The notes under the pieces were generated by a model. The model worked only from the letters and a program-made list of their open reading frames with translations. It ran no database searches and was not told the origin of the DNA. Shown here piece after piece: positions 1,812-55,375 of a DNA stretch of 64,000 bases. Every line of letters starts with the position of its first letter. Position 1 is the first letter of the stretch. A program made the translations under genes and the position numbers. Source of the stretch: Malachius bipustulatus (lineage: Eukaryota > Arthropoda > Insecta > Coleoptera > Melyridae); contig OU342630.1 of the NCBI GenBank assembly GCA_910589415.1, forward strand, positions 14,231,867-14,295,866. The letters are read 5' to 3'.

Positions 1812-2066
1812 TGTCATATTATGTCGAAAAATAATTGAAAGTAGGTACATTTTTGATGACATTTATTCTGACAGTGCACCTATAGGTATTGTAGAGAGAG
1901 GACGTGTCGGGAGAACGCAGGAAGATAAAACCTGGCACGTATTATATGTACCTACATACCTAAAGAACTAAAACTGTGTTAATTTAATTAAAAGTTAATA
2001 AACATTCATTTTCTATTTGACTAATTGATCACTATTCTTGTTAATCCCGTTCCTGATAATTTGACA
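1812..2066 (+). repeat. 3' LTR of BEL copy 1
   Basis: This 255-bp LTR starts TGTCATATTATG and ends CTGATAATTTGACA (TG...CA termini). A purine-rich tract GGTGGGAGAA (1802-1811) precedes it, as expected for plus-strand priming. It matches the LTR at 3122-3376 in reverse complement essentially base for base, including a block where the LTR at 9010-9265 differs. A 67-residue open frame across the LTR (1768-1971) recurs in the other copies and is not considered a gene. Confidence 0.95.
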
Positions 2067-8922: not shown

Positions 8923-8988
8923 TTTTCTATTATAACTTTAACTTTAAACAACTCACTTTACTATTCAAGTTACACTTAACGACTCCCC

Positions 8989-9006
8989 GTCCTGTCACGG
9001 TCGCCA
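8989..9006 (-). other. Primer-binding site of BEL copy 2 (tRNA-Arg type)
   Basis: Read on the minus strand, three bases after the 5' LTR comes TGGCGACCGTGACAGGAC. It has the TGG start complementary to a tRNA CCA end and resembles the tRNA-Arg primer site of 412/mdg1-type insect elements. The tRNA identity is from memory of that family. Confidence 0.8.
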
Positions 9007-9009
9007 AAA

Positions 9010-9265
9010 TGTCAAATTATCAGGAACGGGATAAACAAGAATAGTGATCAATTAGTCAAATAGAAAATGAATGTTTATTAACTTTAAATCAAACTAGCAC
9101 AATCTTTACTTCTTCAGGTATGTAGGTACATATAATACGTGCCAGGTTTTATCTTCCTGCGTTCTCCCGACACGTCCTCTCTCTACAATACCTATAGGTG
9201 CACTGTCAGAATAAATGTCATCAAAAATGTACCTACTTTCAATTATTTTTCGACATAATATGACA
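9010..9265 (-). repeat. 5' LTR of BEL copy 2
   Basis: 256 bp, same termini as the 3' LTR. It is identical to that LTR except for one substitution near 9036 and a dense block at about 9084-9117 (around ten substitutions and a one-base length change). The block, not scattered ageing, is the odd feature. Confidence 0.94.
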
Positions 9266-9270
9266 GTAGG
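9266..9270. repeat. Target-site duplication GTAGG, right copy
   Basis: Pairs with 3117-3121. Beyond it the gypsy A LTR continues with TACGTTCTACTCCG exactly as at 19625. Confidence 0.95.
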
Positions 9271-9563
9271 TACGTTCTACTCCGTTCTAGCAGGTACATT
9301 CTCGAACGTCGCACCGGCGCACCAGCCGTCGATTCATGGATTCTGGAAATGTCAGATTGTTCGGCGATCCCACTCCAGAAATCCATAGAACTAACGTCTG
9401 TCTGTCGATGTGTCACATGACATGTGACTGGAACTGTCGCGAACATGTCATTGACTAACTCAGTATAAAAAAAGAATGTAAACAAACAAGCAAATTCGTG
9501 GACTAGAATGTTAAAGGTTGAAGAAGCAATTACTAGAATTTTTCCAGAGCGGTGTTCGTTATA
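9271..9563 (-). repeat. 3' LTR of gypsy A, second segment
   Basis: Continues the LTR cut at 3121 and matches 19625-19917. It ends CGTTATA at 9563, where element-internal sequence begins. The complement of the adjacent CTGCCCCCTTT (9564-9574) is the polypurine tract AAAGGGGGCAG that primes plus-strand synthesis. Open frames of 125 and 89 residues over the two LTRs are shadows. Confidence 0.92.
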
Positions 9564-9603
9564 CTGCCCCCTTTCTATTTTCGAGCGTCCCGCTCGAACG
9601 GAC

Positions 9604-10131
9604 TTATTCGCTGTCTCCACAGTAGGGTGCCAGACGATTCAGGTGGACTACCTTCATCTTGCACTTGGGGGCTCCGCTCCGCTGTATCCTATACACCACG
9701 TCGTTTATCCTTTTAATAATTGTGTAAGGCCCTTCCCAGGATGGCATAAACTTAGGCGACAAACCCTTCTTCCTAGTTGGATTATAAAACCACACTTTGT
9801 CTCCTTCTGTGAAGCCGCCGGAGTTTGCCTTCAAGTCGTACCTCGCCTTCATTCGGTCGCTGGCCAACTTGATCTTCCTCCTGACTAGGGAATGCACTTC
9901 TGCCATGGAGTTTCTTAATTCGTCGACATAATTTCTGATCTCCGATGGTGGACTGCTTGGTGAACCGTACACCAAATCACAGGGTAGCCGAATCTCCCTG
10001 CCGAATACAACCTTGGCCGGTGTCTGTCCCGTAGTCTCATGGATGGCTGCCCTGTATGACATCAGCAACAAAGGCAGGTACTGGTCCCAGTCTCTCTGAT
10101 TGTTGCTCACAACCTTCGACAGATGTTCCTC
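9604..10131 (-). pseudogene. pol: Gypsy A pol, integrase C-terminal part, shifted frame
   Basis: About 170 residues continue integrase after a frame break: DWDQYLPLLLMSYRAA, GQTPAKVVFGREIRLPCDL, then the GPY-like chromatin-contact region (GDKVWFYNPTRKKG, WEGPYTIIKRINDVVYRIQ) and the stop at 9604. Comparison with the expected FNRT-x-EEHL junction shows two bases missing near 10132. The protein end lies only 41 bases from the LTR. Confidence 0.88.
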
Positions 10132-13100
10132 CTGTTCGATTAAACCGTTCTACCATACCGTCAGATTGCGGATGGAGAGGTGTAGTCCTAGTCTTGTTTA
10201 TCCCGAGCAGTTTACACATTTCTGCGAAAACTTGGGATTCAAAGTTTCGTCCTTGATCGGAATGCAACTCTAAAGGTACGCCAAATCTGCTAATTAAATT
10301 ATCTACCAAGACTCTCGCAACTGTAGCAGCTTCTTGGTTCGGTATGGCGTATGCTTCAGGCCACTTGCTGAAATAATCCATGGCAACCAGGATAAAGCGG
10401 TTGCCGCTGTCGCTGATTGGAAAAGGACCTGCTACGTCTATGGCTATCCTCTCAAATGGGGCTCCGACGTTGTACTGCTTCATAGCGCCTGTCAGTTTTC
10501 TGCTTGGGCCCTTGCTTGCAGCACATTTCTCGCACTTACGGCACCAGGCTTCGACATCGTCCTTGCAGTTCACCCAGTAGAACCTCTCTCGAACTTTCGC
10601 TAGTGTTTTGTTCACTCCGAAGTGAGCTCCTGATGTACCTCCATGGATTACTTCGAGAATCTTCGAAACTTTACTCCTTGGAACCACCAACTGCATGACG
10701 ATCTTCTTTCCATCGGCACTCTCCCAGGCTCTTTTCAGCAGACCATTTTCGATTCGCAGGGACTCCCATTGTGACCATAGAGCTTTATATTCTGGACTAC
10801 GTGGAGAAACCTCTGCCCACGTTGGTCTCGGTCCATTCTCTTCTTTACGTTTTAAAATGTCTCCGATGTCTTCGTCTTTTTCTTGCTCTTTCCTGCATGC
10901 TTCTATCGTCCATCCTGTATCTGCATTGATCACGATCCTTCGAATGCACTCTTCCTTCTGGCTATCCTCAATCCGCTCACAATGTGAGCATTTCACGCAT
11001 GGCCTCCTTGATAGTGCATCAGCGTTCTGGTGTAATCTGCCTGCACGATGTTTTATTTTGAAGTTGAACTGCTGTAGTCGTTCTATCCACCTAGCAGTCT
11101 GACCCTCTACATTCTTCATTTTCATCAGCCAGGTGAGCGCGCCGTGATCTGTTCTGATCAGGAATTCCTTCCCATGCAGATAATTTTTAAAATGCTCTAC
11201 CGATTTGATAATCGCGAGTAATTCTTTCCTGGTGGTACAGTAGTTCCTCTCAGGCTTTGTCAAGGTCTTGCTGTAGTACTCGATGACTCGCTCTTCTCCC
11301 TCTTGGACTTGCGATAAAACAGCACCTATCCCGATATTACTTGCGTCAGTATCAAGTACGTACTTTCCTTCTCTTCGAGGATATGACAGGATCGGACTAG
11401 AAATCAAAGCCTTTTTTAGTCTTCGGAAAGCGTCTTCACACTTGGCATCCCAGATGAAAGGCGTCTTCAATTCGGTGAGCTTATGGAGCGGAGCTGCTAC
11501 ATCTGCAAATTTCTTGACAAATCTTCGGTAGTATGTACAAAGACCCAGGAAACTTCGGACTTCGTGTCTGTCTTTAGGAGTCGGCCAATCACGAATCGAT
11601 GCTACTTTGCTGTCGCTGGTCTGGATTCCTTCAGAAGTTACGGTATGTCCCAAAAACTCAACCTTCTTCTTAAATAGCGAACATTTTTCTGGATTCAGCT
11701 TCAGGTTGGCGGTTCTGAATCGATCGAAAATTTCCTGAAGGTTGTCGATGTGATTTTGGAAAGTGGAACCCATAACCATGACATCGTCCAGGTATACTAG
11801 GCATGTTTTCCAGGTCAGCCCTCGGAGTACCATCTCCATCAGTCTTTCAAATGTGGCTGGCGCGTTGCAAAGACCAAATGGCATAACCTTGAAATTGTAC
11901 AGACCCGTGCCAGTAGAAAACGCAGTTTTCTCTTTGTCGTTTGGGTGCATGCCAACCTGCCAGTAACCGCTCTTCAGGTCCAAGGTTGAGAACCAGACTG
12001 AGCCAGACAAAGTACATAAAATGTCGTCGATTCTTGGTAGCGGGTAGCTGTCCTTCTTCGTAACATCGTTCAATTTCCTATAGTCGACGCAAAACCTCGT
12101 TGTTCCATCCTTCTTGGTTACTAACACGACTGGCGATGACCACGGACTGTTAGATTCCTCAATCACTCCGTCTTTCAGCATCTGGTCCAGCATGGTTGAT
12201 ACCTCTTCTTGTTTCGCAATCGGCAGTCTTCTTGGGGCTTGTCTTATTGGTTGGGTGTCGCCTGTATTTATTCGGTGTTGCACAATGTCCGTTCTGCCTA
12301 ACTTGATGTTCCCTGTTGCGAAAACGTCTTGGTTCCTCTTCAAAAATTCTTTCGCCAACTTTGTCTCGTCTTTTGACAGTTCTTCGAAGTCAACTTCCGG
12401 CAGGACAATCTTCATCTTCCTTGTATCTGCCTTCTCCTTGCCCTTCATCTTCTCGCAACAGCTGATCTTCATGACTGGTACGCAAATTCCAAGTACGTCA
12501 CCTTCCTTGATCCTTGAGCTACCAGAAAACACATTTGCAACACGTACAGGAATCTCTCGGCTAGTGTTGACTAAGGTCTTGGCGGTTATCAGGTTCTTGT
12601 TACTGTCTGGGGATGGCTCGACTAACCCAACGCAGCTTCCAAGATCTGCTTCCAGTCTGGCCGGGACTATCTGCTCGCTGAACCCTCGGATGGTGGTCGT
12701 TGAACTCGCAATGAGTCTCGTCATTACCTTCTGTGATTTTCTAGAGCTCAGTACCAAGTCTTCTTCACCCAATCTCAGTATACCTTGTTTCGGATCAATT
12801 CGCAGTCCGTGCTGTTGAATGATGTCTAGTCCCAGAATAAACTCGTCTTCAATCTCGGCTACCACAATTGTATGACGCAGTTCCAGGGCTCCAAGCTGGA
12901 TTCGGCCATCTACTTCGCCGATGACATCTGCGATTTCACCTGTCGCTGTCTTCAACTGGACCCGCCTCGATGGATGACGAATTACAGCAGGACTGACCAT
13001 GTCCTTCCTTACCAATGAGATCGATGATCCGGTGTCGAGTACCATGGCAACAGATTTCCCATTTATCTGCCCTTCAACGGCTAGGCTGTCTACGTGGCGT

Positions 13101-13165
13101 TGGAGTGTTCGGATGGAAACGATCTTGGGGGCCTTGTTGTTGTCAGCCAGCATTCGCCCCTTCAC
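10037..13165 (-). CDS. pol: Gypsy A pol: protease, RT, RNase H, integrase core (3' frameshifted)
   Basis: 1042 residues; the initiation shown (GTG at 13165) is arbitrary, because the frame is open upstream in the -1 frame relative to gag. Retropepsin is at about 38-50 (MVLDTGSSISLV). RT follows (FSTLDLKSGYWQVG, then YLDDVMV), then RNase H (YVLDTDASNIGIGAVLSQ). Integrase has an HHCC head (HGGTSGAHFG, CRKCEKC) and core motifs AIDVAGPF, LHSDQGRNFE and HPQSDGMVERFN. Order PR-RT-RH-IN is Ty3/gypsy. The gag stop TAA (13177-13179) directly follows GAAAAC, and pol is open across it in -1, so ribosomal frameshifting is likely but inferred. The last 30 residues are out of frame. Confidence 0.93.
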   Translation of the reverse strand: MKGRMLADNNKAPKIVSIRTLQRHVDSLAVEGQINGKSVAMVLDTGSSISLVRKDMVSPAVIRHPSRRVQLKTATGEIADVIGEVDGRIQLGALELRHTIVVAEIEDEFILGLDIIQQHGLRIDPKQGILRLGEEDLVLSSRKSQKVMTRLIASSTTTIRGFSEQIVPARLEADLGSCVGLVEPSPDSNKNLITAKTLVNTSREIPVRVANVFSGSSRIKEGDVLGICVPVMKISCCEKMKGKEKADTRKMKIVLPEVDFEELSKDETKLAKEFLKRNQDVFATGNIKLGRTDIVQHRINTGDTQPIRQAPRRLPIAKQEEVSTMLDQMLKDGVIEESNSPWSSPVVLVTKKDGTTRFCVDYRKLNDVTKKDSYPLPRIDDILCTLSGSVWFSTLDLKSGYWQVGMHPNDKEKTAFSTGTGLYNFKVMPFGLCNAPATFERLMEMVLRGLTWKTCLVYLDDVMVMGSTFQNHIDNLQEIFDRFRTANLKLNPEKCSLFKKKVEFLGHTVTSEGIQTSDSKVASIRDWPTPKDRHEVRSFLGLCTYYRRFVKKFADVAAPLHKLTELKTPFIWDAKCEDAFRRLKKALISSPILSYPRREGKYVLDTDASNIGIGAVLSQVQEGEERVIEYYSKTLTKPERNYCTTRKELLAIIKSVEHFKNYLHGKEFLIRTDHGALTWLMKMKNVEGQTARWIERLQQFNFKIKHRAGRLHQNADALSRRPCVKCSHCERIEDSQKEECIRRIVINADTGWTIEACRKEQEKDEDIGDILKRKEENGPRPTWAEVSPRSPEYKALWSQWESLRIENGLLKRAWESADGKKIVMQLVVPRSKVSKILEVIHGGTSGAHFGVNKTLAKVRERFYWVNCKDDVEAWCRKCEKCAASKGPSRKLTGAMKQYNVGAPFERIAIDVAGPFPISDSGNRFILVAMDYFSKWPEAYAIPNQEAATVARVLVDNLISRFGVPLELHSDQGRNFESQVFAEMCKLLGINKTRTTPLHPQSDGMVERFNRTGGTSVEGCEQQSERLGPVPAFVADVIQGSHP

Positions 13166-13176
13166 ACTGGCTGAAG

Positions 13177-13479
13177 TTAGTTTTCCTGCCGTCGACGGGG
13201 AGCTTCCCGTTCTCGAGAGACACTTCTCTCTCTGCTCCCGCTCCTGTCCCTGCCTGGTCTTCGTTCCAGGGATCCACCACGTCTCGGAGTCTCACTTTCT
13301 TTACAGTCACGAATAAAATGTGAACTGGATCCGCAACGGTAGCACTGCTTCCTGGTTTCGTCCCTCCTTGGAGTCCAACCTCTTTTCCCATCATTCAACT
13401 GCTCAGAGATCTTATCCATCATCTTATTTAACTTTTCCATTATGGTAGTCACGTCCTCTTCTTTTTCCTCATTGATTGT
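13177..13479 (-). CDS. gag: Gypsy A gag, C-terminal (nucleocapsid) part
   Basis: From the gypsy B insertion point the gag frame resumes at INEEKEEDVTTIMEK and runs to a stop at 13177. It contains one zinc knuckle CYRCGSSSHFIRDC and an Arg/Ser/Glu-rich basic tail, typical for RNA packaging. Removing gypsy B and one ATTGT copy puts it exactly in frame with the N-terminal part at 18241-19269. Confidence 0.9.
   Translation of the reverse strand, partial: TINEEKEEDVTTIMEKLNKMMDKISEQLNDGKRGWTPRRDETRKQCYRCGSSSHFIRDCKESETPRRGGSLERRPGRDRSGSRERSVSREREAPRRRQEN
13475..13479. repeat. Target-site duplication ATTGT, left copy (gypsy B)
   Basis: ATTGT precedes the left LTR of gypsy B and recurs at 18236-18240, immediately after the right LTR. 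A 5-bp duplication is normal for Ty3/gypsy integration. Confidence 0.95.
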
Positions 13480-13672
13480 TGTACTATTATTGATAATAAT
13501 AGTCTTAGAGATTACTCTGTAGAGGAATAAAGAAACGTAACACAATTCACAAGTGATAAATAATAAGTTTTATTGAACAACTTTTAGGAGCATCTCACAG
13601 TCGCCATTACTGTACTTGTGCTGTCAGTCACGCGCCTTGTTGCCAAGACCGTCACAATCTCCTAACAGCACA
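13480..13672 (-). repeat. 3' LTR of gypsy B
   Basis: 193 bp, TGTACTATTATTG to CCTAACAGCACA on the plus strand (TG...CA). The complement of TCCTCCCCTTTTT (13673-13685) is the polypurine tract AAAAAGGGGAGGA, directly adjacent. Confidence 0.96.
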
Positions 13673-13688
13673 TCCTCCCCTTTTTAGT

Positions 13689-15608
13689 CTAATAATCTAA
13701 TACATAATCTTCTAGATATACAGGTTTCTTTCTATTTCTAACAGGTCTACTTTTACATGCTATAGGAGTACTATGAGCACAAGGAGTCTCATTAATTCCT
13801 ACTTCATTATGAACAACGTCAGAAAAGGTAACAATACGTTCTTCCCTCTGACTAATGTCATCGGGAGCATTAGGTGCACTGAAACTCCGTGTCTCGGATC
13901 TAGAAGTCGGAGGTTCAGACGGTGTCGGGGTAATTACTTGTCGAGGAATATGATAAGGTGTGGGAATCAAATGCCATCTGTTCCTACGGTAGGTACCCCT
14001 AGGAGTTTCCACTACATAAGACCTAGGTTCCGGTAATACTGCAATAATTTTCCCGTACTCTCTCACATCAACCACCCAAACACCATCTCCTACATTTAGA
14101 TTACTTAACTCTCTAGACCGGTGTCTTTTATCAAATTGGATTGCAGACTTATTCTTAGCTTTACTCTCTCTTTGAAAAACAGCTCGCGTATCTACAGTCT
14201 CATTAAGTTTTTTAGAAATCATTGGTAAGGGTGACCTCAATTTTCTATTCATTAGTAACTCAGCTGGACTAAACCCGCACTGTAATGGGGTGGTGCGATA
14301 TGCTAATAAAGCCAAATAAATGTCTTTGTTTTTCTTAATCAGGGTTTTGGCTGTCTTTACCGCAGCTTCTACGCATCCGTTTGATTGTGCAAAATAGGGA
14401 CTACTGGTTATATGCCTGAAATCATATTCTCTAGCAAACTGCTTGAATTCCGCTTGGAACTGTGGCCCGTTATCCGATCTTACTATCTCCGCTATACCGT
14501 ATCTAGAAAAGAGTTCTTTTAGTTTACTTATGATTATTGATTCAGTCATTTTGACAAGTTTAAAAATTTCAAAAAATCTGGAAAAGTAATAGGTAACTAT
14601 CAAATACCACGAATCTGTTTTAAATAAGTCGATTGCAATTTTCTGCCACGGTCTTTCAGGAAAATCATCTTTAATAAATGTTTCTTTTGGGTTAGTTCTA
14701 TGTTCTACACATTGCGGACAATTTCTAACCACATTTTCTAGTTGAGTGGAGAGACCGAGCCACCAAACTGATGCTTTTGCTCGTTCCCTACACTTGACCA
14801 CACCTAAATGTCCTTGATGTAGAAATTCTAAACAGCGAAATTGTAAAGATTTGGGTATTATTATTCTAGATCCTCTCAAAAAAATTCCTTCACTAAACGA
14901 TATTTCGTGTCTATAGTTAAAATAAGGTAAAAGGCTCTCATCTAGTTTGTTTTTATTAGGCCAACCTTCGAAGATATATTCTTTTAGTAATTTACAAATT
15001 TCATCTTTCTCTTGTTCGACAATTATTTCTTCTATGAAATATGATTTGACTGGCACATTTCTGATTATTAAGTTTACGTGAGCTTCTACATCTTGAGCTA
15101 ATTCGTCATCTTCGGGTACCACTGAATTTTTTGAAAAATTTCGTGATAAAGCATCAGCTACCACTAGCAGTTTTCCTGGAATATATTCGACTAGATATTG
15201 ATACCTCATTAGACGAATTCTAAAACGCTGCAACCGAGGTGTCAATTCGTCGATTGGTTTACTTTGTAAAATTTGAATGAGCGGTTTGTGATCGGTTTCT
15301 AAAAAGAAGACCAATCCCGTTACATATTCCTGAAACTTGTCAGCTGCCCACGTCAACGCTAAAGCTTCTTTCTCTATCTGGGCGTATCTTTTTTCTGTTG
15401 GAGACAATAGTCTAGAAGCATATGCTACTACTTCTTTATGACCATTCTTAGATTGAATTAAACATGCTCCCAATCCATAAGATGATGAATCAGCTGAAAT
15501 GGATATCTTTTTTGACTGGTCAAAATAGGCTAGACATGGGCTGCACTGTAATACTTCTTTGATTTTATTGAATGCCTCTTCTTGAGAACTATCCCAACTA
15601 TATGACAC
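13689..15608 (-). CDS. pol: Gypsy B pol: RNase H and integrase
   Basis: 639 residues. RNase H is at about 15-130 (ISADSSSYGLGACLIQ, ETDHKPLIQIL, ADALSR). The integrase HHCC head is HQGHLGVVKCRERA plus CPQCVEH. The core has AIDLFKTDSW, RSDNGPQFQ and SNGCVEAAVKTAK. The C-terminus has NVGDGVWVVD and an Arg-rich YRRNRWHLIP segment. The first ATG is not a real start: the frame continues RT from the ORF at 15598-17889 across the A10 run. This style (K02A2.6-like, Mag-type) is common in insect gypsy elements; clade is inferred. Confidence 0.93.
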   Translation of the reverse strand: MSYSWDSSQEEAFNKIKEVLQCSPCLAYFDQSKKISISADSSSYGLGACLIQSKNGHKEVVAYASRLLSPTEKRYAQIEKEALALTWAADKFQEYVTGLVFFLETDHKPLIQILQSKPIDELTPRLQRFRIRLMRYQYLVEYIPGKLLVVADALSRNFSKNSVVPEDDELAQDVEAHVNLIIRNVPVKSYFIEEIIVEQEKDEICKLLKEYIFEGWPNKNKLDESLLPYFNYRHEISFSEGIFLRGSRIIIPKSLQFRCLEFLHQGHLGVVKCRERAKASVWWLGLSTQLENVVRNCPQCVEHRTNPKETFIKDDFPERPWQKIAIDLFKTDSWYLIVTYYFSRFFEIFKLVKMTESIIISKLKELFSRYGIAEIVRSDNGPQFQAEFKQFAREYDFRHITSSPYFAQSNGCVEAAVKTAKTLIKKNKDIYLALLAYRTTPLQCGFSPAELLMNRKLRSPLPMISKKLNETVDTRAVFQRESKAKNKSAIQFDKRHRSRELSNLNVGDGVWVVDVREYGKIIAVLPEPRSYVVETPRGTYRRNRWHLIPTPYHIPRQVITPTPSEPPTSRSETRSFSAPNAPDDISQREERIVTFSDVVHNEVGINETPCAHSTPIACKSRPVRNRKKPVYLEDYVLDY

Positions 15609-17889
15609 GTTTTTTTTTTAATAATGAAGTCAATGGTTCAAGAATCTCTGATTTATTAGCTATAAATCGGCTAGAGAAATTTATCATTCCTAAGAATTGT
15701 AAGAGTTCCTTTTTATTGGTTGGTTTAGGAAATTTTTTTATACTAGAAATTCTTTCTGGATCTACTGCGATTCCCTCTGTGGAAATATGGTGACCCAGAA
15801 ACTTAAGTTCCTGCACCCCTATTATGCATTTTAGTTTGTTTAATGTTATGCCTTCGAGGTCAATTTTCTTTAGTACTTCATTCAGAATTTTATCGTGTTC
15901 GATTTTGGTGGGAGCATGAATTAAAATATCGTCTATATGACTAATTACCCCCTTAATACCCATCAGTGCTTTATTTAAAAGAATTGAAAAATATTCTGGG
16001 GCGCAAGTAATCCCAAAGGGTAGGCGTTTAAATAAGAATCTTCCGTAGGGAGTAATAAATGTAGTCAAATGCTGAGAATCCTTACTGAGCTTAATCTGGT
16101 AAAACCCTGAAGTACAGTCTAATTTCGAAAACCATTTAGAACCTTTTATCTGTGCTAAAATATTTTCAATTTTGCCTATAGGAAAATATGATCTTAACAC
16201 AGCTTTATTTAAATGAGTATAGTCAACACAGAGTCGGACTTTTGATTGTTTTTGTACCACTACTATAGGACTGACCCAGGGAGTATAATAGTCTACTACT
16301 TCTATAATGTCGAGTTTCTGTAATCTATCCAATTCTTCTTTCAGTGGATTCAATAAGGGTATAGGTACAACTCGCGGTGTACTCTGAATATAAGGTTGGA
16401 CCCCTTCTCTAATTTTTATTTCCATCTCAGTCCTGAACGTACCTATGTCACTAAAAATCCTAGGAAATCTCTGTTGAATACCGTCCACACTATCTATATG
16501 ATTGTCTGAATCTACTACACATAAAGAATTATTATTGTGATAATACAAAAGTTTCAATTTAACTATGGATGCCCTACCTATTATTGGCTTAATTAATCCT
16601 TTAATAACATATACTTCTGTCTCAACCGCCATATTACCTTTGTTTAACTTTACTTGTACCGTCCCTGCTATATCCAATTTGACGCCAGACGGACCGGTTA
16701 CAATTTTTGTACAAGGACGTAACTTTTCTAACAAATAGGAATTCAAGAAAGTATTTGGCAAGCAAGTAATATCTGCGCCCGTATCAACTAGGAAGCTTAC
16801 TTCTTTTCCCAACTCAGTTACATAAATATTCACTAACCATTCCTTAGCGTTTGTATATGCAGCTACATGGAGTAACTCTATGGAACCTAAGTAATTATTA
16901 TTTCCTGTTCTATCTACTTTCTCGGTATAGTCGCTTGATCTATCCTGTCCTTCTTCACTATAACTATTATCGCAATACATGGATCTGACCTTTGTATTCC
17001 TGCAGACTGCTGCCCAGTGTCCCCGTTTCTTACAGTTATTACAAACAGACCTATTTGCTGGACAACGTTCACGAAAGTGCCATTGGTATCCGCAAAAGCT
17101 GCACTTCTTATCTACTGGTCTATTATTGTGCCCATTATTTTCTTCATCACTGCGACTTTTCTGATAATATGGCAATTTATCTGCAGTTGGTGCAGCATTG
17201 GCTGATCCAGCAGCACTGGAACTACTTTGCTGGAAGTATCTCCTACGACCTTGACTTTGACCAGCTTGGATCACAGCTGCTGTAACCTCTGAAGCATAGT
17301 TGCTCCTCCCATCTTGTCTCTCCTGTATCTCCCGACTCTGACTAGCTTGCAATTCAGCCTGTTTCGCAATAGTAACGCATTCTTGTAGAGTGAGATCTTC
17401 TTTTAATTGTAATCTTTCGCTGGTTTTAACGTCTCTCATACCGACAACAATTCGATCTCTGATTAACTGTTCTTTCAACGTTCCATAATCGCAGTTTTCA
17501 ACTAAGCTATGTAAACTGGTAATGTATGCTTCAATGGACTCACCCGGCGCTTGAACTCTCGAATTAAATTTGAATCTCTCGAATATGACGTTTCTCCTGG
17601 GGATAAAATGTCTCTCAAAACTTTCCAAAGTTTCTTCGTATGTTACCGGTATTTGTGAAAATTGAAGTAGTATCTCTTCTGATTCTTCTCCCATAATGTA
17701 CATTAAACTGTTGATCTTTTCTTCGTTTGATTTCGTGATTTGTCCAGAGACTGACATATAACGTTCGAAGCGCTTCCTCCATTGGGGCCATGAAACTGGA
17801 TTCACGAAACTAAATTTATCAGGCGGGGAAAACTGAACCGGTACATTTATAATGGGGTTACTTGGACCCGCTATCTCCTCATCCGGCAT
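15598..17889 (-). CDS. gag-pol: Gypsy B Gag-protease-RT
   Basis: 763 residues from ATG at 17889. The Gag capsid-like part is at about 25-185 (WPQWRKRFERYM, FIPRRNVIFERFKF). Two zinc knuckles are at about 262-296 (CSFCGYQWHFRERC, CNNCKKRGHWAAVC). Retropepsin FLVDTGADITCLP is near 365. RT has VRLCVDYTHLN, FSKLDCTSGFYQI and HIDDILIH; His in place of Tyr before IDD also occurs in some related elements. The frame ends RVI just after a run of ten A (15610-15619). Eight or eleven A would keep RT and RNase H fused, so this is an indel, a slippage site or a base-call error. Confidence 0.93.
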   Translation of the reverse strand: MPDEEIAGPSNPIINVPVQFSPPDKFSFVNPVSWPQWRKRFERYMSVSGQITKSNEEKINSLMYIMGEESEEILLQFSQIPVTYEETLESFERHFIPRRNVIFERFKFNSRVQAPGESIEAYITSLHSLVENCDYGTLKEQLIRDRIVVGMRDVKTSERLQLKEDLTLQECVTIAKQAELQASQSREIQERQDGRSNYASEVTAAVIQAGQSQGRRRYFQQSSSSAAGSANAAPTADKLPYYQKSRSDEENNGHNNRPVDKKCSFCGYQWHFRERCPANRSVCNNCKKRGHWAAVCRNTKVRSMYCDNSYSEEGQDRSSDYTEKVDRTGNNNYLGSIELLHVAAYTNAKEWLVNIYVTELGKEVSFLVDTGADITCLPNTFLNSYLLEKLRPCTKIVTGPSGVKLDIAGTVQVKLNKGNMAVETEVYVIKGLIKPIIGRASIVKLKLLYYHNNNSLCVVDSDNHIDSVDGIQQRFPRIFSDIGTFRTEMEIKIREGVQPYIQSTPRVVPIPLLNPLKEELDRLQKLDIIEVVDYYTPWVSPIVVVQKQSKVRLCVDYTHLNKAVLRSYFPIGKIENILAQIKGSKWFSKLDCTSGFYQIKLSKDSQHLTTFITPYGRFLFKRLPFGITCAPEYFSILLNKALMGIKGVISHIDDILIHAPTKIEHDKILNEVLKKIDLEGITLNKLKCIIGVQELKFLGHHISTEGIAVDPERISSIKKFPKPTNKKELLQFLGMINFSSRFIANKSEILEPLTSLLKKKRVI

Positions 17890-18024
17890 TTTTAAACTTC
17901 AATTTACGAACGGTTAATAGTAATTTCAAATAAAAATTCACTTATTTAGAAATGACGCGTCTACTGCGTCATATTACATAACAGCAAGGCGTTAGCGTAC
18001 CTTTCGATTTCGATCATCATTTGT

Positions 18025-18042
18025 ATCCCACCGCTGCCACCA
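18025..18042 (-). other. Primer-binding site of gypsy B (tRNA-Leu type)
   Basis: On the minus strand TGGTGGCAGCGGTGGGAT begins with no gap after the 5' LTR. All 18 bases match the complement of a eukaryotic tRNA-Leu 3' end (acceptor ...CCGCTGCCA plus CCA), from memory of that tRNA. Confidence 0.85.
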
Positions 18043-18235
18043 TGTACTATTATTGATAATAATAGTCTTAGAGATTACTCTGTAGAGGAATAAAGAAACG
18101 TAACACAATTCACAAGTGATAAATAATAAGTTTTATTGAACAACTTTTAGGAGCATCTCACAGTCGCCATTACTGTACTTGTGCTGTCAGTCACGCGCCT
18201 TGTTGCCAAGACCGTCACAATCTCCTAACAGCACA
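18043..18235 (-). repeat. 5' LTR of gypsy B
   Basis: 193 bp, identical by eye to 13480-13672. It would carry the promoter, but no clear TATA box was picked out. Confidence 0.96.
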
Positions 18236-18240
18236 ATTGT
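18236..18240. repeat. Target-site duplication ATTGT, right copy
   Basis: Pairs with 13475-13479. The Gag codons for Thr-Ile (ACA ATT) run into it. Confidence 0.95.
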
Positions 18241-19269
18241 CACTGCTCGTACCTTGGAGAAGTTCCTACCATTGGACGCCTTGATTGCTGCGTCTATCTC
18301 AAGCGCTCTAACTAACGCTTCGCTGGACTTTGTCAAATGTGACATGCGCAGGATCTTCTGTATTTCAGTGTCTCGTATCCCGTTGACAAAGGTTTGCGAG
18401 GCTAGTTGTTCCTTGAAGTTCTGCGGCGAGTCTGGGTAGGCTTGATGGACAATTCTGTTGACATCAGCTTCGAACTCCTGTAGCGACTCATTCGGCTTCT
18501 GCACTCTGCTCATTAACTGATTTTGGAACACCTGCTCCATATGGCGATTACCGAACCGAAGTTCTAATGCTGCACTCAATTGGTTGTAATTCGAGTGCAG
18601 TTCTACCGGCAGTGTTTGCAGCATGTCCACAGCTTGCCCTCGAAGAGCAAGAACCAGTGCCGTTGCCTTCTCTGTGTCGTTCCACCCGTTGGCCATGCAT
18701 GCAGCCTGAAACTGCATCTTGTACGCAGTCCAAGGAGTTGTTCCGTCGTACGCTGGTGGTTTCACTTTCGCGCCAAAACTGCTAGTCGGTACGGCACACG
18801 GAGGATGCTTCACCTCAGAACTTTCGAGAGTTCTGAGTTTATTCTCGATCTCCTCTACCAGCAGTTTCGTTTTCCGTTCTACTCGATTTTCTACCAATTT
18901 CACTTCATCGCGAACACCACCGACTTCATCGCGAACACTGTCAATGTCTTGTTTCACTTTGTTTAGTTCACAAACATAATCGTCTCTTTGCTGCAGGATA
19001 ACTTTTAGCAGCTGCTCCTCACTATCCTTCTGCTGTTGCATCAGCTTCTCTTCTGTGTCTTCAAGCTTCTTAATGATGTTCTTCTGCTCTTCCTGGCCGT
19101 CTTCAAGCTTCTTCATGATGTTCTTCTGCTCTTCCTGGCCGTCTTCAAGCTTCTTCATGATGTTCTTCTGCTCTTCCTGGCCGTTTTTGAGCAGTAACAT
19201 CATATCCGCCAACATTTGCTCAGACATTTTGTCGCTTCCAGTTTCCTTTCCACTTCTTAATTTACCCAT
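18241..19269 (-). pseudogene. gag: Gypsy A gag, N-terminal part, truncated by gypsy B
   Basis: From ATG at 19269 (MGKLRSGKETGSDK) about 343 native residues remain. The last 15 or so residues of the open frame come from the gypsy B LTR. Residues about 25-75 are a coiled-coil-like stretch with three near-perfect copies of GQEEQKNIMKKLED (42-bp DNA repeats, about 19060-19190). A capsid-like region follows (PPAYDGTTPWTAYKMQF, ELRFGNRHMEQVFQNQL, NESLQEFEADVNRIV). The zinc knuckle is in the piece at 13177-13479. Confidence 0.9.
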
Positions 19270-19299
19270 TAACTAATCAATCTTCTTGCTGGAATCCGT

Positions 19300-38115: not shown

Positions 38116-39849
38116 ATTTACATGAAAGTTTACATAAAGATTTGATCATGTGGAGGCTTATGTAGGTACCTACCTATGTAGGTACTAACCTGTGTGAAGG
38201 GTTATATTTGAAGAAGCTTGGAGAAATAAAGAAGAGTGGTGGAGTTTAGTTTGGAGGCATGGGAGGTTTCATCAGGCAGAGGTCCTAGCGCTTTGATATT
38301 TGGTCGTTACAAGGTTGAAGGGGGAGCAGTCCAGCTCATCCGGCACCTGGAGCACCAACCAAGGGGTGCTAACACCAGTACAAAGGCAGTTCCAGTAACC
38401 ATGCCGGCCTATTCTTTGATCATTGCGTTTATGTTAGAGGAACCTTAGTTCATCAGTTTTGAAATGGAGTTTTGAATATTAAGGTATGTCTTTATGAGTG
38501 AATAAACTTTTGCTATTTTCCAACAACCAAGAAAATTAAATAAATTCAAGTACAGTGTTTAATTGATTTCATCACCTATGACTTTCTAAGTGAATCTGAT
38601 TTTTGATAATATGTTATGAACTTTTATTGTGGTCAACAAGTGACTAATGTAATGGTTATGTGTAAAAATAATTTATTAAATTTATCGTGTGTGTTTAGGA
38701 TTTTGAGTTAGAGATGATCATTTTGTAAATTAAATTTTGAATTTCAGATTTTGTAGGTAGATACCTGTTTTTATATTGAAACTTTTGCTTAAGATAAATT
38801 TAAATTTTTGATAGATAACTTCTGATCTAACTCTGAGTTCTATTCAGAACCATACCTATGTGTTATAGTTTAGAAATTGTTTAATAGAATATGAGCTTTA
38901 GAAATTTTATCTGAGCTATTGAAATGATATAGGTACCTATCTTGAATTTTAGTCATGTAAGTTTGATATCATTGGTAATAAGGTAATATTTATGTTTGAA
39001 TGTTTGAATCAGGATTACTGATTTTGATTATTAAATTTATTGTTTATGTGTAAGATCTATTGGTGATTACCAGTCTATTGTACTGATGAAATTGATTTTA
39101 ATAAATCTTTGTATTAAAATTTAACAATTTTAGAGTATTGAGAATCAACCCTCCTCATGTTCTTTTTAAATCATTTATTCAGAAATTAGAGTAACATCAA
39201 GAATAAGGTGATATATTCTGGGATATTTTGGTGAAGTTTATCAATTTTTTGTTATTGTTTTTAAAATTGTTAGGAGTTACTACGGGTCCAGTCTGGTTCG
39301 GTGAATGCTGGATTTTCCAGAGGAAGGCCACATTTATCTGTCCTGGACTGGATAAACACAACGAACCTTTTGATTAAGTTTGGTTTGGTTTGATACTTTG
39401 GAAATTTAGACGATCACTTTTCAAAATTTAAAATTTATTTTCGTTTCGACATTTAGAATATTTGGGTGGGGCATTCGAAATTTGATATGTTCCACTCGAC
39501 AGGCCAATGTGGCTAATGTTACAAATTTGCCTAGTCACATTGAGATCTGTCAATAGCCACCTCCTTCTTTTCTGGGTTAAGGTAAGTGAATTATATTTTT
39601 TTTTATTATTCAAATTTTTGAGTGGGAGTAAGCGAGGGGGAGGAAGGCTCCAGATAAAAAGTGATACCTAAGTGACATTGAAAACAGGAACACCCGATAT
39701 GCCAATGTTTGTATAAGACTATTATTATGTCAGTCCATTATTGGTCTTAAAAGTTATAGTAGGCGGTGAAATTCTGAATTTTTTAATTTAATTCATTTTT
39801 TACTTATTCTGGAAAATCTATCACTTCTTGCCCTTGTATAATAAATATA
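38116..39849. other. Intergenic DNA, partly low complexity
   Basis: No recognisable gene. A 70-residue frame at 38236-38448 and a GC-richer stretch at 38250-38440 have no domain I recognise. 39660-39830 contains an inverted fragment (AAAACAGGAACACCC; TATTCTGGAAAATC) of the 60570-61060 family. Confidence 0.4.
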
Positions 39850-40852
39850 CAGGGTGCACCATGTATCCTTCTCTATATTGCTATCTCATGAACGCTAAGA
39901 GATACAGGTCGGTTAAATTAGAGAAAAGATGCGCAGTATTGTGGCCATGTCTAATCCGTCAAGACATGCAAGATATTTGTGACTACCTACTCGTGAAGTA
40001 TCCTGAAAAAACTGAAAAATCGATATTTCTTATTTTTGCCATATCTTGTTTATTATTAAAAATTAATAAATAATTTTTTGTAGGCTTACATAAGCCGTTC
40101 AGATCTATCCATCTGTCATTACAAAAATTTTCAAGGCCTACTATAGATCCAAGGGTTTTCACAGTCAACTTTCGTTTTTCTTATGGCCGCCATATTATTT
40201 TTTTATGTCGTTCGATATGAAAAAAATAATGGAAACCAAAAATTAATAAACTTCCAAAATTTTAATTTTATTTTTATTATTCTTTTTTCAAAGGAAAACA
40301 AAAAAATCATCTAAAAACGTCAACATTTGTAAAATACGCCGAAATAGTGCTTGTCTTATGGTTTTTTAATTTATCTATGAAATTCGGTCTTAAAAGTTGT
40401 CTTTTTTGTAAAGAAAAAAGAAGAATAAAATTGTTTTTTTATTTTTTTTTGAACTTTAACAATTTTTAGTTTCAATGATTTTTTTTATACCGAACAACAT
40501 AAAAAAACAATATGGTGGCTATAAGAAAAACGAAAGTTGACTATGAAAATCCTGGGATCTAGTCGGCTTTAAATTTTTTTTTGAAATGTCAGATGGGTAG
40601 CTCTTGCCGACTTATGTAAGTCCATAAAAAATTATTTATTAATCTCAAATAATAAGAAAGATATGGCAAAAATAAGAAATCTCGTTTTTTTCAGTTTTTT
40701 CAGGATATTTCAGGAAAGGTCACAGATATTTTGTATGTCTTGACTGATTCGAGATGGCCACAAAATTGCGCTTCTTTGAACTTGTTTTACCGACCCTGTA
40801 TCTGTTAGCGTTAAGAGATAGCAATATAGAGAAGGATACATGGTGCACCCTG
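39850..40852. mobile_element. Palindromic transposon, 1003 bp, same core as 43473-44464
   Basis: TA-CAGGGTGCACCATGTATCC to GGATACATGGTGCACCCTG-TA. Its core (from about 39900 to 40802) is shared with the elements at 43473 and 59081, for example GGTCGGTTAAATTAGAGAAA and CATAAGAAAAACGAAAGTTG. The outer 50 bp on both sides are unrelated to those of its relatives. Confidence 0.87.
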
Positions 40853-40862
40853 TATAGTTTAG

Positions 40863-42370: not shown

Positions 42371-42766
42371 ATCTGAAGAATATAATAACCAAGACATTTC
42401 AAAATTAGACTGCTTAAAGGCATTTATAAATCCCTGTTTGGGACTCTTCAGTACAATGTATCTACCAACACACAGCACAGTTTAGATCACGGATCCCGTG
42501 AGCAGAATGCATAGAAATAAAAATAAAAATAAAATAAAAAGGCACGGTGGGTTAGGCTTGCGCCATAGGATACACCCCAGACAGCCATAATGCATGCCAA
42601 AAATGAGTGCAGTGCCTCCCGATGTGCATGAAGTAGGTAAAGCCCCTACTAGGCGTTGCTAGACAAAAGATGCCCACCGTGCCTTTTTATTTTATTTTTA
42701 TTTTTATTTCTATGCATTCTGCTCACGGGATCCGTGATCTAAACTGTGCTGTGTGTTGGTAGATAC

Positions 42767-42811
42767 ATTGTACTGAAGAGTCCCAAACAGGACGAAACAC
42801 GTGTCTACAAT
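42767..42811 (+). ncRNA. Type I hammerhead self-cleaving ribozyme 1
   Basis: All core parts are present. Stem I is ATTGTA (42767-42772) with TACAAT (42806-42811). The core is CTGAAGA (42773-42779; CUGANGA allows any base at the seventh core position). Stem II is GTCC, loop CAAACA, GGAC (42780-42793), followed by GAAA (42794-42797). Stem III is the short palindrome CACGTG (42798-42803) with a U closing pair. The cleavage triplet is GUC, with cut expected after 42805. Such a short stem III is known in newt and Penelope hammerheads, which work best as dimers. Confidence 0.92.
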
Positions 42812-42847
42812 TTCCGCCTCTGCTCACAGCACAACATTAATGGATGG

Positions 42848-42866
42848 CATGTTGTCTGACAACATG
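42848..42866 (+). repeat. Perfect hairpin downstream of ribozyme 1
   Basis: CATGTTGT-CTG-ACAACATG, an 8-bp stem with a 3-base loop. It is repeated at 43168-43186 in the second copy and sits in the 5' part of the would-be cleaved monomer RNA. Confidence 0.8.
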
Positions 42867-43086
42867 TCATTCATCTTTTGTCTAGCAACGCCTAGTAGGG
42901 GCTTTACCTACTTCATGCACACCGGGAGGCACTGCACTCATTTTTGGCATGCATTATGGCTGTCTGGGGTGTATCCTATGGCGCAAGCCTAACCCACCGT
43001 GCCTTTTTATTTTATTTTTATTTTTATTTCTATGCATTCTGCTCACGGGATCCGTGATCTAAACTGTGCTGTGTGTTGGTAGATAC

Positions 43087-43131
43087 ATTGTACTGAAGAG
43101 TCCCAAACAGGACGAAACACGTGTCTACAAT
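43087..43131 (+). ncRNA. Type I hammerhead self-cleaving ribozyme 2
   Basis: Identical to ribozyme 1, shifted 320 bp; cut expected after 43125. Cleavage at both sites of one transcript would release a 320-nt RNA (42806-43125) with 5'-OH and 2',3'-cyclic phosphate ends, the form that can circularise. Confidence 0.92.
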
Positions 43132-43472
43132 TTCCGCCTCTGCTCACAGCACAACATTAATGGATGGCATGTTGTCTGACAACATGTCATTCATCTTTTG
43201 TCTAGGTAAATTATTTGAAAAGAAAGAAAAGAAAGATTAATCAAATGCTGTGAACAATAATCGTTGAAAGATGTTTATATCCAAATCAAACAAAAATGCA
43301 GTTTATTCAGATTCCTTGAAATATTCTTTGAGAAATTCTTAAAAAAAGCTGAATAATGTAAGTACTATTTGTCTCTATTTGTCAATAAATCTCCTATTTT
43401 CAATATTTTGACAGAAAACTAAGAATAAGGAAGGTCTAATCCTAAATACATAAGATTTATAAGAGTAATATA

Positions 43473-44464
43473 CAGGGTTAGAACTATTTAAAGGGCCACT
43501 CTAGGGATATCCTAAACCATTGAAGATACGAGGTCGGTTAAATTAGAGAAAAGCTGCGCTATTTTGTGGCTACTCGAATCCGTCAAAACATGCAAGATAT
43601 CTGTGACCGTTCCTGAAACATCCTGAAAAAACTGAAAAATCGAGAAATCTTATTTTTGCCATATCTTCCTTACAATTGAAAATTAATGGATAATTTTTCG
43701 TAGGTTTACATAAGCCGTTATGAGCTATTCATCTGACGTTTCAAAAAATTTCAAAGCCCACTAGATCCCAGAGTTTTCATAGTCCACTTTCGTTTTTCTT
43801 ATGGCCTCCATATTATTTTTTTATGTCGTTCGATAAGAAAAAAATAATGAAAACCAAAAATTAATAAACTTCCAAAAATAATTTAATAAAATTTTTGTTC
43901 TTTTTTTTCTAAAAAAAGACAATTTTTTAGACGGAATATCATAGACAAATTAAAAAACTATAAGGCAAGCAGTATGATTTCATATTGACCTATTTCAGCG
44001 AAAAATTTTCTGTTTTTCTTTGAAAAAAGAAGAAAAATTTTCCAAATTTTTTTTCCGAAGTTTATTAATTTTTGGTTTCCATTATTTTTTTCTTATCGAA
44101 CGACATAAAAAAATAATATGGCGGCCATAAGAAAAACGAAAGTTGACTATGAAAACTCTGCGATCTAGTGGGCTTTGAAATTTTTTGAAACGTCAAATGA
44201 ATAGCTCATAGCGGCTTATATAAGCCAACGAAAAATTATTTATTAATTTTAAATTGTAAGAAAGATATAGCAAAAATAAGATTTCTCGATTTTTCAGTTT
44301 TTTCAGGATATTTCAGGAACGGTCACAAATATCTTGCATGTTTTGGCTTTTGGCGGATTCGAGATGGCCACAAAATAGCGCAACTTTTCTCTAATTTAAC
44401 CGACCTCGTATCTTCAATGGTTTAGGATATCCCTGTGGTGGCCCTTTAAATAGTTCTAACCCTG
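43473..44464. mobile_element. Palindromic transposon, 992 bp, core as in 39850-40852 but new ends
   Basis: TA-CAGGGTTAGAACTATTTAA to TTAAATAGTTCTAACCCTG-TA. The core from about 43523 to 44413 matches the element at 39850 segment by segment. The outer 50 bp on each side are mutually complementary yet unlike the relative's ends. Confidence 0.87.
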
Positions 44465-44831
44465 TATAAGCTAGGTAACTTACATTTACAAATGTCTCTA
44501 AGATTTTCCAACTTACCTCTAAAAATTGGGTTTATAGTTTTTCGGATTTTAAATTTTGAAATAAAATGACATTTCATTTAATCGACATAACCTAAATTAA
44601 TTTAGTAACTATTACAGTGACTATTTTAGTAACAACTATCACCATAACCAACCTAATCAGTCTTGTTGCCAATCGCTCCCCTAGAATTTTGACTTGGTGG
44701 AATCCATCTAAATAAAAAATAAGGATAGTGTAATAATTACAACAACAAAGTGGAGAGTGTTATTCGAGCCAAGTACATATTAGTAAAAAGAAGACGTTTG
44801 TTTGGGTTCTAGGGCTCATAGATAATACTGA
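44465..44831. other. Intergenic AT-rich DNA
   Basis: No gene or repeat end recognised. Confidence 0.5.
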
Positions 44832-45054
44832 TCTTAAAGCCAAAAGCAGACAAAAACAATGTTGAAGACATGGATGGCCATTTCGCTCTTATTAGAGCTC
44901 ATCGGCATCGGTATAATAAATATATAGTATCAACTGATCTTTAGCTAGAAGTAGACAATTGCGATTGTTGATATGACATGTCGATGAGCTCTAATAAGAG
45001 CGAAATGACCATCCATGTCTTCAACATTGTTTTTGTCTGCTTTTGGCTTTAAGA
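44832..45054. mobile_element. MITE, 223 bp with 74-bp terminal inverted repeats
   Basis: TCTTAAAGCCAAAAGCAGAC at the left and its complement at the right, near-perfect over about 74 bp, around a loop of about 75 bp. Family unknown. Confidence 0.85.
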
Positions 45055-47129
45055 TAGTGTAATAGATACATTTAATTTTTCTTCTAAATAAACGTTAATC
45101 AAACTGACATTTCTACTTTTCCGTCCATGGTACGAAAGTTTTTCACAGCTAGCAACCACCTAGCGCGACCTATCACCTAGCATGTTTTATTACTTTCGCT
45201 TTCGGTTGCCTTATCAAGACAGAAAGTTACAATTTTGTAAAGGGGAGAATGAAATAACTATTTTTATTAAATCAGTAAATTAAAAACTAAACGTACGTCT
45301 CAAATTGTTTTAGTAACAAAAAGTAAAAAAATATATACATAAGAGTATATTGAAGGCAAAATGTTTCTTGTGCAAGTTCCAATATTAACTTAGGGGTGAA
45401 ATAAAAGTCTTATATAAAAATTTATCCTATTTATTTCTGTTTAATTGATACAATATTTTTCTTTACATTCGAATAAAATAGGTAATAAAAATATTTGTTT
45501 ACAAGGTACAACTATTAGAGTAAATGACCACCTGCGTGAAGTAGTAATTTTATACAAGTGAAGTAGGGTGTCAAACTGTCAACGTTTTAGTTGCGATTCG
45601 TTAAAATACCTATTAAAAGTTGAATAGTCAAACTTTTGGCTTAGGTGAAGTAAATGCTATTTTTCTAGTTAACTGCTCTTCTGATTAACTCGGTTAGACT
45701 CTTCGACAAGCCTTCAACATTTCTAGAAAAACAATAGTTTTAACAATTCACAACTAAAAGTTGAACTAGGGTACCTAATCTTTAGCAACCTCAAACTACT
45801 ACGTACCATTATCGTTGACTGAGAGATGAATAAGAGGTACTACTTAGGTAGGTAATAATATAATATATGAAATTAAATTGTTAATATAGGTATCTACCAT
45901 AGTTCGATGGTAGGGCAACTTTCTGATATAAGTAATTTATGAGAACAAATAGAACAATTGCAAATAAATAAATAAATAAATAAATATAATTTATTTAATT
46001 GCAAATGAAACTCAAGAACACGGAGAAAAACACCTCTATGTTACGTTTTGGATTTCTTTAATCTTTATATGCAATTTTATTTACTATACTAATACAGTTG
46101 TACCTGCACCGTGTTTTAACTCGATTATGGGAACTGGGAGAAGTAGTATAGCCAATTTCATAAGGATGCTATGGTATACAATATTTATTTATTGTCAAAG
46201 CATTCGTAAAAACATTCTTGCCCATCAATAACATAAATAGTGTAATTTTATGCCATTAGATTAAGAATATTTTGACAAATTTTTTGTCACATTTTCAAAG
46301 GAAGTGGACTGAAATTTTTACAGTAGACAGATATAGGTAGGTACTAATACATAGGGATTCAAGAGGAACTTTTTACAGTCCCTTACGGGGAACATCATGT
46401 GATCCTTAAAAAGTGTCAACTCCCCTTCTCTTGTTAGTAGGGTGATTATTGATTTATGAATTTAAAAAAATATTCATTTGGCTACAATATCTATCGGATC
46501 ATTAGAAATTTCGAATTTTTCGGTGCAGCTGAACCTACACTGTTATCAAGCCTGTTTTCTAAACTTTTAAATTCCTGACCGCCATCTAGTTTCAGAGAAG
46601 GTAGAAGGTGGAGTTTTCTAAACTTTAACATTACAAAAAACATGATATTTCGAAAGCTGAACGTGTTTTGCAGGAAATTTGGGCAAGGTTAGATATTCAC
46701 CAAATGCAATATCTGAAATGAAAGAAATGTAATTTTGTTTTTAAAGTTGCAAAAATCTATTATTTTTCAGTACAGGGTAGTATGTACTCTGATGCAGGGA
46801 AAGTTGTAAATAAATGTTTTTATATTTACAATATTCTGTTTACAATATTGTAACAGGTCTGTTAAAATTAGCCAAGTTTTTGGTGTTCTTTTTTATTTTT
46901 TTCCTAAAATTTGAATAAATGCAAAAATGTGGAAATTCGGTCGAATAAAATTTTGTCATTAAGATAATTATCATAGTTCTTTTGTTTATAATCATATAGT
47001 TGAAAATCTGAAGAGAAAAACTTTTTTTTGCAAATTGGGAAAAATAAACAAAAATGCAAGTTTGATAAATTTTAATATGCAGGTAAATTCAAACATTTTC
47101 ATTTCCAATTTTCCCCGCGTTGATCAACG
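45055..47129. other. Intergenic AT-rich DNA
   Basis: An (AAAT)n tract lies at 45961-45985. Around 46205-46290 is a diverged copy of the dispersed repeat seen at 31225 and 34676. No coding frame recognised. Confidence 0.5.
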
Positions 47130-54539: not shown

Positions 54540-55375
54540 GAGTCATGCAGCGAGGAAAACGAACTTTCGGTGCTATTGATGGCAACAGAAAATCCACATA
54601 TCAGTCAAAAAGCAATCGGTGAAACAACCGTTTTAGTGAGATATGTGTGCAACGAATTCTGAAAAAAAAAATCATGTAGTTATTGTAGTTACATGCCTAC
54701 CACATTCAGTTGCATCAAGAACTCAACAATGCTGATTTTCAACTTTTCAACTGCGTTCTGAATTTTTCGACTGGCCAAGACTGGAGGAATCTACATTTTT
54801 CACGTGTCTGTTAGTCACAGATGAAGCTACATTTCGTAAAAATGGATCTGTAAACAGGCATAATTTCCATTATTACAAATCAATAGTCAACATCGCTGGT
54901 CTTTAAATGTATGGGGAGGAATTGTCGGAGAAAATGTTGTAGGGCCGCATTTTTTCAAAGGTCATCTTAATGGACCTATGTATTTAAATTTTTTGCAACA
55001 AGTGTTGTCTAATTTACTAGGTAATGTTTCTCAGCATACAATAAACAGGATGTGGTTTCAGCAGGATGGAACCCGTGCACATTTTTCGCTACATGTCAGA
55101 GCATATCTCGACGAAATTTTTTCCGAACCAGTGGATTGGTAGGAATGGGCCCACCAGGTGGCCGGCTAGATCACCCGATCTGACAAAACTAGATTTTTTG
55201 AGGGGATAATATGTGAAAGAAATGGTGTATAACAATCCACCAACAACACTCATTCTCATAAATATGCAACAAAGAATAGTGGACGCGTTTGCTCGCATTA
55301 CAACTCAAATGTTGAGGAGAGTGGAAACATCTTTTCCGCAGAGAATCATTTTTGTTGCTTGAATGAAATGGAAGA
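54540..55375 (+). pseudogene. Broken Tc1/mariner-superfamily DDE transposase
   Basis: Pieces in all three frames spell a DDE transposase of the type often labelled with DUF4817 in insects. They are ATENPHISQKAIGE (HTH), HIQLHQELNNADFQ, LLVTDEATFRKNGSVNRHNF (first Asp), VGPHFFKGHLNGPMYLNFLQ, MWFQQDGTRAHFSLHVRAYL (second Asp) and ARSPDLT-like remnants. At least six frameshifts or stops occur, so it is inactive. Complementary arms lie at about 54070-54150 and 55555-55640. Confidence 0.85.

Follow-up and report, generated by a model that had tools for sequence, protein, structure and literature searches.

At positions 42433-43205 of a 64,000-nucleotide stretch of the genome of the beetle Malachius bipustulatus (Melyridae; assembly GCA_910589415.1, contig OU342630.1, positions 14,231,867 to 14,295,866 of the forward strand; hereafter the window) lies a plus-strand element of 773 bp that carries two type I hammerhead ribozymes. 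Its borders are given by direct and inverted repeats of a 320-nt unit, position 1 of which is defined as the first base 3' of the ribozyme cut. The order is head-to-head. An inverted piece of 240 nt (42433-42672, minus strand; sense unit positions 67-306) comes first and is followed by a direct part of 533 nt (42673-43205, plus strand) that starts at unit position 188, completes one full turn and ends at unit position 80, corresponding to 1.67 units. The inverted piece is the reverse complement of 42872-43111 at 239 of 240 positions, with the sole mismatch at 42922. Within the direct part, 42673-42885 and 42993-43205 (213 nt each) are identical at an offset of 320. The first-pass annotation of this DNA had described two hammerheads in a repeat with this period; the direct 320-nt spacing was recovered exactly, and the repeat itself proved to be 1.67 direct units preceded by the inverted piece. 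As far as the sequence can tell, the ribozymes, the unit, the borders and the inverted layout are established. The insertion is probably young, as judged from the near-identity of the element parts.

Both hammerheads were found where they had been placed by the first-pass annotation. The Rfam covariance model of the type I hammerhead (RF00163, Hammerhead_1) matches 42767-42811 (copy 1) and 43087-43131 (copy 2) on the plus strand, each over model positions 1-45 with 58.7 bits (E = 7.5e-13; gathering score 34), and no other RF00163 match above the gathering threshold occurs in the window. Chance similarity is ruled out by the E value and the presence of two copies. Cleavage is predicted 3' of the C in GUC, between 42805 and 42806 in copy 1 and between 43125 and 43126 in copy 2, in agreement with the earlier assignment. 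According to the sequence and the model alignment, stem I (ATTGTA/TACAAT) can form six pairs, stem II (GTCC/GGAC with the loop CAAACA) four and stem III two, and the core consists of CTGAAGA and GAAA. Position 7 of the hammerhead core may vary.

The core, the stems and GUC follow each other in type I order, as had been described, but the CACGTG stem III of that description is too generous for a monomer. Stem III is formed by the 8-nt palindrome ACACGTGT and, because of this palindromic nature, comprises in cis at most two base pairs and an ACGU tetraloop. When two ribozymes are paired in a cofold, a double hammerhead with a continuous stem III of 8 bp is obtained. Two 45-nt ribozymes cofold at -22.9 kcal/mol compared with 2 x -6.0 kcal/mol singly, and two 71-nt pieces at -32.9 compared with 2 x -13.5 kcal/mol. 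In these models, the longer stem III helix requires a second ribozyme. The earlier reading, correct in recognizing a type I hammerhead, had thus taken stem III as self-contained; it also overlooked the inverted segment as well as where the element begins and ends, and it left the class of the element unnamed. A stem III of two base pairs and a tetraloop is likewise described for HHR_Amex2 of the axolotl, the dimer of which cuts better (PMC7229834). Unlike the beetle element, this amphibian repeat is reported with a unit of about 350 bp and a U-U mismatch that weakens helix II, whereas four standard stem II pairs are present here.

Two cuts would release a 320-nt monomer (42806-43125, plus strand), a candidate circular RNA. 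Its predicted release and possible circularisation are supported, being consistent with the covariance match and with published accounts of metazoan retrozymes (PMC7229834). The unit has a GC content of 0.447. Folded as a circle of 320 nt, it reaches a minimum free energy (MFE) of -90.1 kcal/mol compared with a mean of -75.2 kcal/mol (sd 4.7, z -3.2) for 200 dinucleotide shuffles, one of which was as low. Within the circled unit, the longest frame measures 71 aa and has no Pfam match and no relative.

Metazoan retrozymes without long terminal repeats (non-LTR) are characterized as repeats of 150-450 bp with RNAs of 170-400 nt, a GC content below 50% and type I hammerheads (PMC7229834). Insects and crustaceans are named among the carriers (Cervera and de la Pena 2020, PMC7229834), and a putative tick retrozyme is given as an example in a figure (PMC4918200). 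All traits tested on the 320-nt unit, namely the type I hammerhead, tandem arrangement, unit size, low GC content, lack of coding capacity and high self-pairing, were found, and the likeness to the published retrozymes extends to RNA size and a compact fold. With high confidence, the element is assigned to the metazoan non-LTR retrozymes, i.e. it is a non-autonomous retroelement that is built of 320-nt units and has no coding capacity. This class is already described with insects among its hosts, and the 320-nt family is a further member. What sets the element apart is the inverted 5' piece; the word "inverted" is absent from the main text of PMC7229834. A literature search, covering mostly titles and abstract openings with some passages, returned no inverted retrozyme insertion and no named beetle retrozyme. 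Relatives matching the ribozyme pattern numbered zero in viral contigs and zero in prokaryote genome contigs, which says little about animals, and blastn of the element gave no match among 50,697 phage and 72,556 plasmid records, as expected for an animal element.

Hammerhead-bearing arthropod repeats also include a satellite, pDo500 of Dolichopoda cave crickets, the hammerhead of which cuts multimers to monomers (PMC2837043). The locus could accordingly be imagined as old satellite DNA that arose via unequal crossing-over and was inverted later. pDo500 is a roughly 500-bp satellite that makes up about 5% of one host genome, and no short inverted insertion is described in the available text of that report (PMC2837043). 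The beetle locus, however, comprises only 1.67 units, its parts are almost identical, the partial inverted piece has clear-cut ends, and no array is found within the window. A satellite origin is thus highly improbable.

A cleavage site is found at neither outer end of the element. The left end corresponds to unit position 306, inside ribozyme stem II, and the right end to unit position 80, 80 nt past the cleavage site; at both ends, the neighbouring flank bases do not extend the unit sequence. The inverted ribozyme is broken off inside stem II; GAAA and stem III are missing from it, and the inverted piece is consequently devoid of a cleavage site. Downstream of each cut, an inverted repeat at unit positions 35-69 forms a strong hairpin (plus strand; copy 1 at 42840-42874, copy 2 at 43160-43194, the latter also seen in the fold). 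The segment 43155-43205 folds at -20.2 kcal/mol, and the element stops 11 nt beyond this hairpin. The inverted copy breaks off at unit position 67, at most 3 nt from the hairpin foot. At the inner junction, inverted unit position 67 meets direct unit position 188, and inspection of this junction revealed neither shared bases nor a palindrome. Such a junction would also be left by two independent retrozyme insertions, back to back and in opposite orientation. In that case, however, the second insertion must have struck the exact end of the first, with zero flank bases between the two and an identity of 239/240, a coincidence that is hardly credible.

In a transcript of the full element, a 240-bp hairpin could form between 42433-42672 and 42872-43111, which might give rise to small RNAs directed at the family.

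The layout suggests a course of insertion that starts from a multimeric transcript. Each of its type I hammerheads would cleave this transcript, probably most readily where adjacent ribozymes pair via the palindromic stem III, and a host ligase would close the released monomer into a circle. A reverse transcriptase acting in trans would copy the circle or the uncut multimer into a new site. A template of either kind is indicated because the direct part crosses two uncut cleavage sites over 1.67 units. The terminus of a cleaved monomer was not the starting point of copying, since the 3' end lies inside the unit and does not match the flank: a comparison of the right flank with the RNA following unit position 80 revealed no homology. 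The head-to-head inverted piece suggests that both target strands were extended. Most likely, both DNA strands served as primers at internal RNA sites, in an order of priming that we infer. One strand would have started at unit position 80 and been extended by 533 nt; the other would have started at unit position 306 within the ribozyme and halted after 240 nt at unit position 67, near the hairpin foot. The outcome would be the head-to-head inverted piece plus the direct tandem.

The element carries no enzyme, since no stop-to-stop open reading frame (ORF) of at least 90 aa is present between 41,010 and 54,863. A Penelope-like element is the most likely candidate to have provided the enzyme, although the chances for and against it appear about even. 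Typical Penelope structures are reported to consist of direct pseudo-LTRs (pLTRs) and an adjacent inverted pLTR, most commonly in head-to-head arrangement, and pLTRs are able to carry foreign sequence, an unrelated gene having been taken along in one case (PMC3846280). The purified Penelope protein of an anole is reported to extend both strands, with internal starts at sites that do not match the DNA; its main start is located 111-118 nt into the ORF and the hammerhead cut at +26 (PMC11167929). By subtraction, this start is about 85-92 nt past the cut (PMC11167929), compared with 80 nt in the beetle element. For the same anole element, ribozyme mutations are described as having no effect on insertion in vitro, and the ribozyme cut only in the presence of the protein (PMC11167929). 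The element resembles Penelope-like elements in the type I hammerhead within the repeat, in the direct and inverted head-to-head repeats (PMC3846280, PMC11167929) and in a reverse-transcription start that is internal and lies about 80-90 nt beyond the site of ribozyme cleavage (PMC11167929). It differs from them in having no ORF for reverse transcriptase and GIY-YIG endonuclease. Tentatively, and with somewhat less than an even chance, the locus can be read as the footprint of Penelope-type reverse transcription on a retrozyme circle, with both strands primed, internal starts, one of them about 80 nt past the cut, and the adjacent hairpin replacing the Penelope start-site stem-loop.

The same Penelope-like layout would be shown by solo tandem pLTRs of a Penelope-like element that lacks its ORF, in which case no independent retrozyme family would exist. 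Penelope hammerheads are situated at the border of pLTR and ORF (PMC11167929), and rotifer pLTRs measure 181-218 bp (PMC3846280). Yet the frame across the ribozyme has no Pfam match, and the ribozyme is not of the minimal kind. Penelope ribozymes are reviewed as minimal, without helix III or loop-loop contacts (PMC7761336), whereas here a 2-bp stem III with a tetraloop is possible. In addition, when the ribozyme is imposed on the fold, stem I extends beyond an internal loop, resembling the looped stem I extension reported to be required by the type I ribozymes of newts in their monomeric form (PMC6155905). An origin as solo pLTRs is therefore regarded as unlikely.

Several observations weigh against a retrozyme spread by a Penelope-type enzyme, some concerning the ribozyme and others the insertion. 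In the best fold of the 320-nt circle, an alternative helix buries the cut site; forcing the ribozyme to form incurs a penalty of 2.2 kcal/mol by MFE and 3.5 kcal/mol by ensemble. For the segment 42730-42850, the unconstrained fold likewise prefers a helix that conceals the cut site to the ribozyme, which costs 3.4 kcal/mol of ensemble energy when imposed; pairing probabilities are below 0.01 for the two pairs of stem III and 0.21-0.50 for stem I. The folding model excludes tertiary contacts, which could offset the penalty. Apart from AT-rich matches of 14-31 nt, no further copies are found in the window, so that the element is represented there by a single locus. A target site duplication (TSD) is possible but weak, being short and offset: the 5-bp motif TAAAT (42427-42431 and 43207-43211) sits 1 base outside each element end and is equalled by 1.42% of 20,000 random flank pairs in the same search. 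With at most 5 bp, it differs from the TSDs of 8-10 bp (or none) given for rotifer Penelope examples (PMC3846280). The palindrome at inverted junctions that is frequent in rotifer Penelopes is not seen here, and the rotifer family Pen1 has mostly direct pLTRs only (PMC3846280). The start sites are unequal between the strands (unit positions 306 and 80); the enzyme of the anole, in contrast, is described as acting alike on both (PMC11167929). The ORF list shows no Penelope protein in the vicinity of the element, a dedicated six-frame search not having been run. The AT-rich target is uninformative in a window of 65% AT. Finally, an inverted-plus-tandem layout is also expected from twin priming by long interspersed nuclear elements (LINEs).

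The last point leads to the main rival explanation, in which the same retrozyme was inserted by a LINE through target-primed reverse transcription, with twin priming yielding the inverted 5' piece. In L1 twin priming, the inverted piece lies upstream of the direct piece, and the order of the two pieces is the same here. An RNase H frame in the window (2060-2743, Pfam PF00075) may, we presume, be part of a LINE. TSDs of a LINE-like kind, 15 bp long, are reported for the Nematostella repeats (PMC4918200). The beetle element, in contrast, has a TSD of at most 5 bp, its 3' end is neither poly-A nor a simple repeat, and the right flank is without homology to the RNA. Insertion by a LINE has to be taken seriously but is on balance doubtful.

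The window is rich in transposons. It contains 45 frames of at least 90 aa, nine of which were run through Pfam, four of them without a match. Frames of LTR retrotransposons are located on the minus strand at 3539-5116, 10037-13291, 15598-17898 and 18187-19272, with Pfam matches to integrase, reverse transcriptase, protease or gag; by eye, we take the frames in 3539-19272 to belong to BEL/Pao and Gypsy elements. Inside the gag frame, a 42-bp repeat is present in three copies (19057-19184). For the gag frame, 67 relatives are listed, with identities of 31-55%. Where a source is named, it is mostly the beetle Aromia moschata; Coccinella, Brassicogethes, Diabrotica and Zophobas also occur, as do a blowfly, a snail and a stick insect. 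Among the best 120 of 7912 matches to the Gypsy pol frame, identities range from 58 to 74%, and those with a named animal source come from various arthropods; the top match (74%) is from an unnamed source, and the pseudoscorpion Cordylochernes reaches up to 71%. Two insect-type retrotransposon proteins, P0006 from the gag search and P0084 from the Gypsy pol search, are labelled 'Rickettsia endosymbiont of Ceutorhynchus assimilis' and probably stem from DNA of the weevil host that was filed under the name of its endosymbiont. A 92-aa frame at 54864-55142, presumably a mariner transposase tail as judged by eye, has no Pfam match at E 0.001.

Foldback elements, i.e. long inverted repeats, are found at 39843-40859 and 43469-44468. 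The two are related, being about 80-90% alike over matched stretches, and the second starts 263 bases after the retrozyme. A short foldback repeat at 44831-45055 has arms of 78 nt that are 97% complementary. It is the source of two sub-threshold HH9 hammerhead matches (44963-45035, 30.9 bits against 52; 44871-44907, 23.1 bits), which were judged artefacts of this repeat. They are among the six weak matches, all under the cutoffs, that were added by a permissive covariance rerun. A ribozyme pattern with a spacer two bases longer than in the two ribozymes, which it therefore could not match, fits two places in the window; this is near chance, since 17 of 100 shuffles reach two, and both places were disregarded.

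With a looser ribozyme pattern, hammerhead-like sites were found at 120 or more viral-contig loci, which were compared with the 320-nt unit at the ribozyme only. Of 136 pattern matches at 120 of these loci, 119 (at 105 loci) have a stem I of at least 4 bp. One viral contig (L055) contains five hammerheads in type I order on one strand within 4.3 kb (1892, 2389, 2867, 4170 and 6151). They have a common stem II and loop and four kinds of stem III, and none of the five is above the Rfam gathering score.

Considered as a ribozyme alone, the 320-nt unit adds one arthropod-like family to those described. The less expected feature is the structure of the insertion, rather than the ribozyme or the unit, and the main interest lies in this footprint. 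Retrozyme repeats are reviewed as lacking a conserved motif that would reveal their helper, with Penelope/Terminon elements named as likely candidates (PMC7761336); Penelope as retrozyme helper is thus suspected but unproven. An insertion of the inverted-plus-tandem type makes the helper question testable, as copies of the family would then be expected to end alike at unit position 80 and to carry inverted pieces repeatedly. If the Penelope footprint holds true, it would provide direct sequence evidence for a helper that has so far been proposed from co-occurrence, tandem copies and shared hammerheads. The insertion footprint thereby bears on the question of which enzyme spreads the retrozymes of animals.
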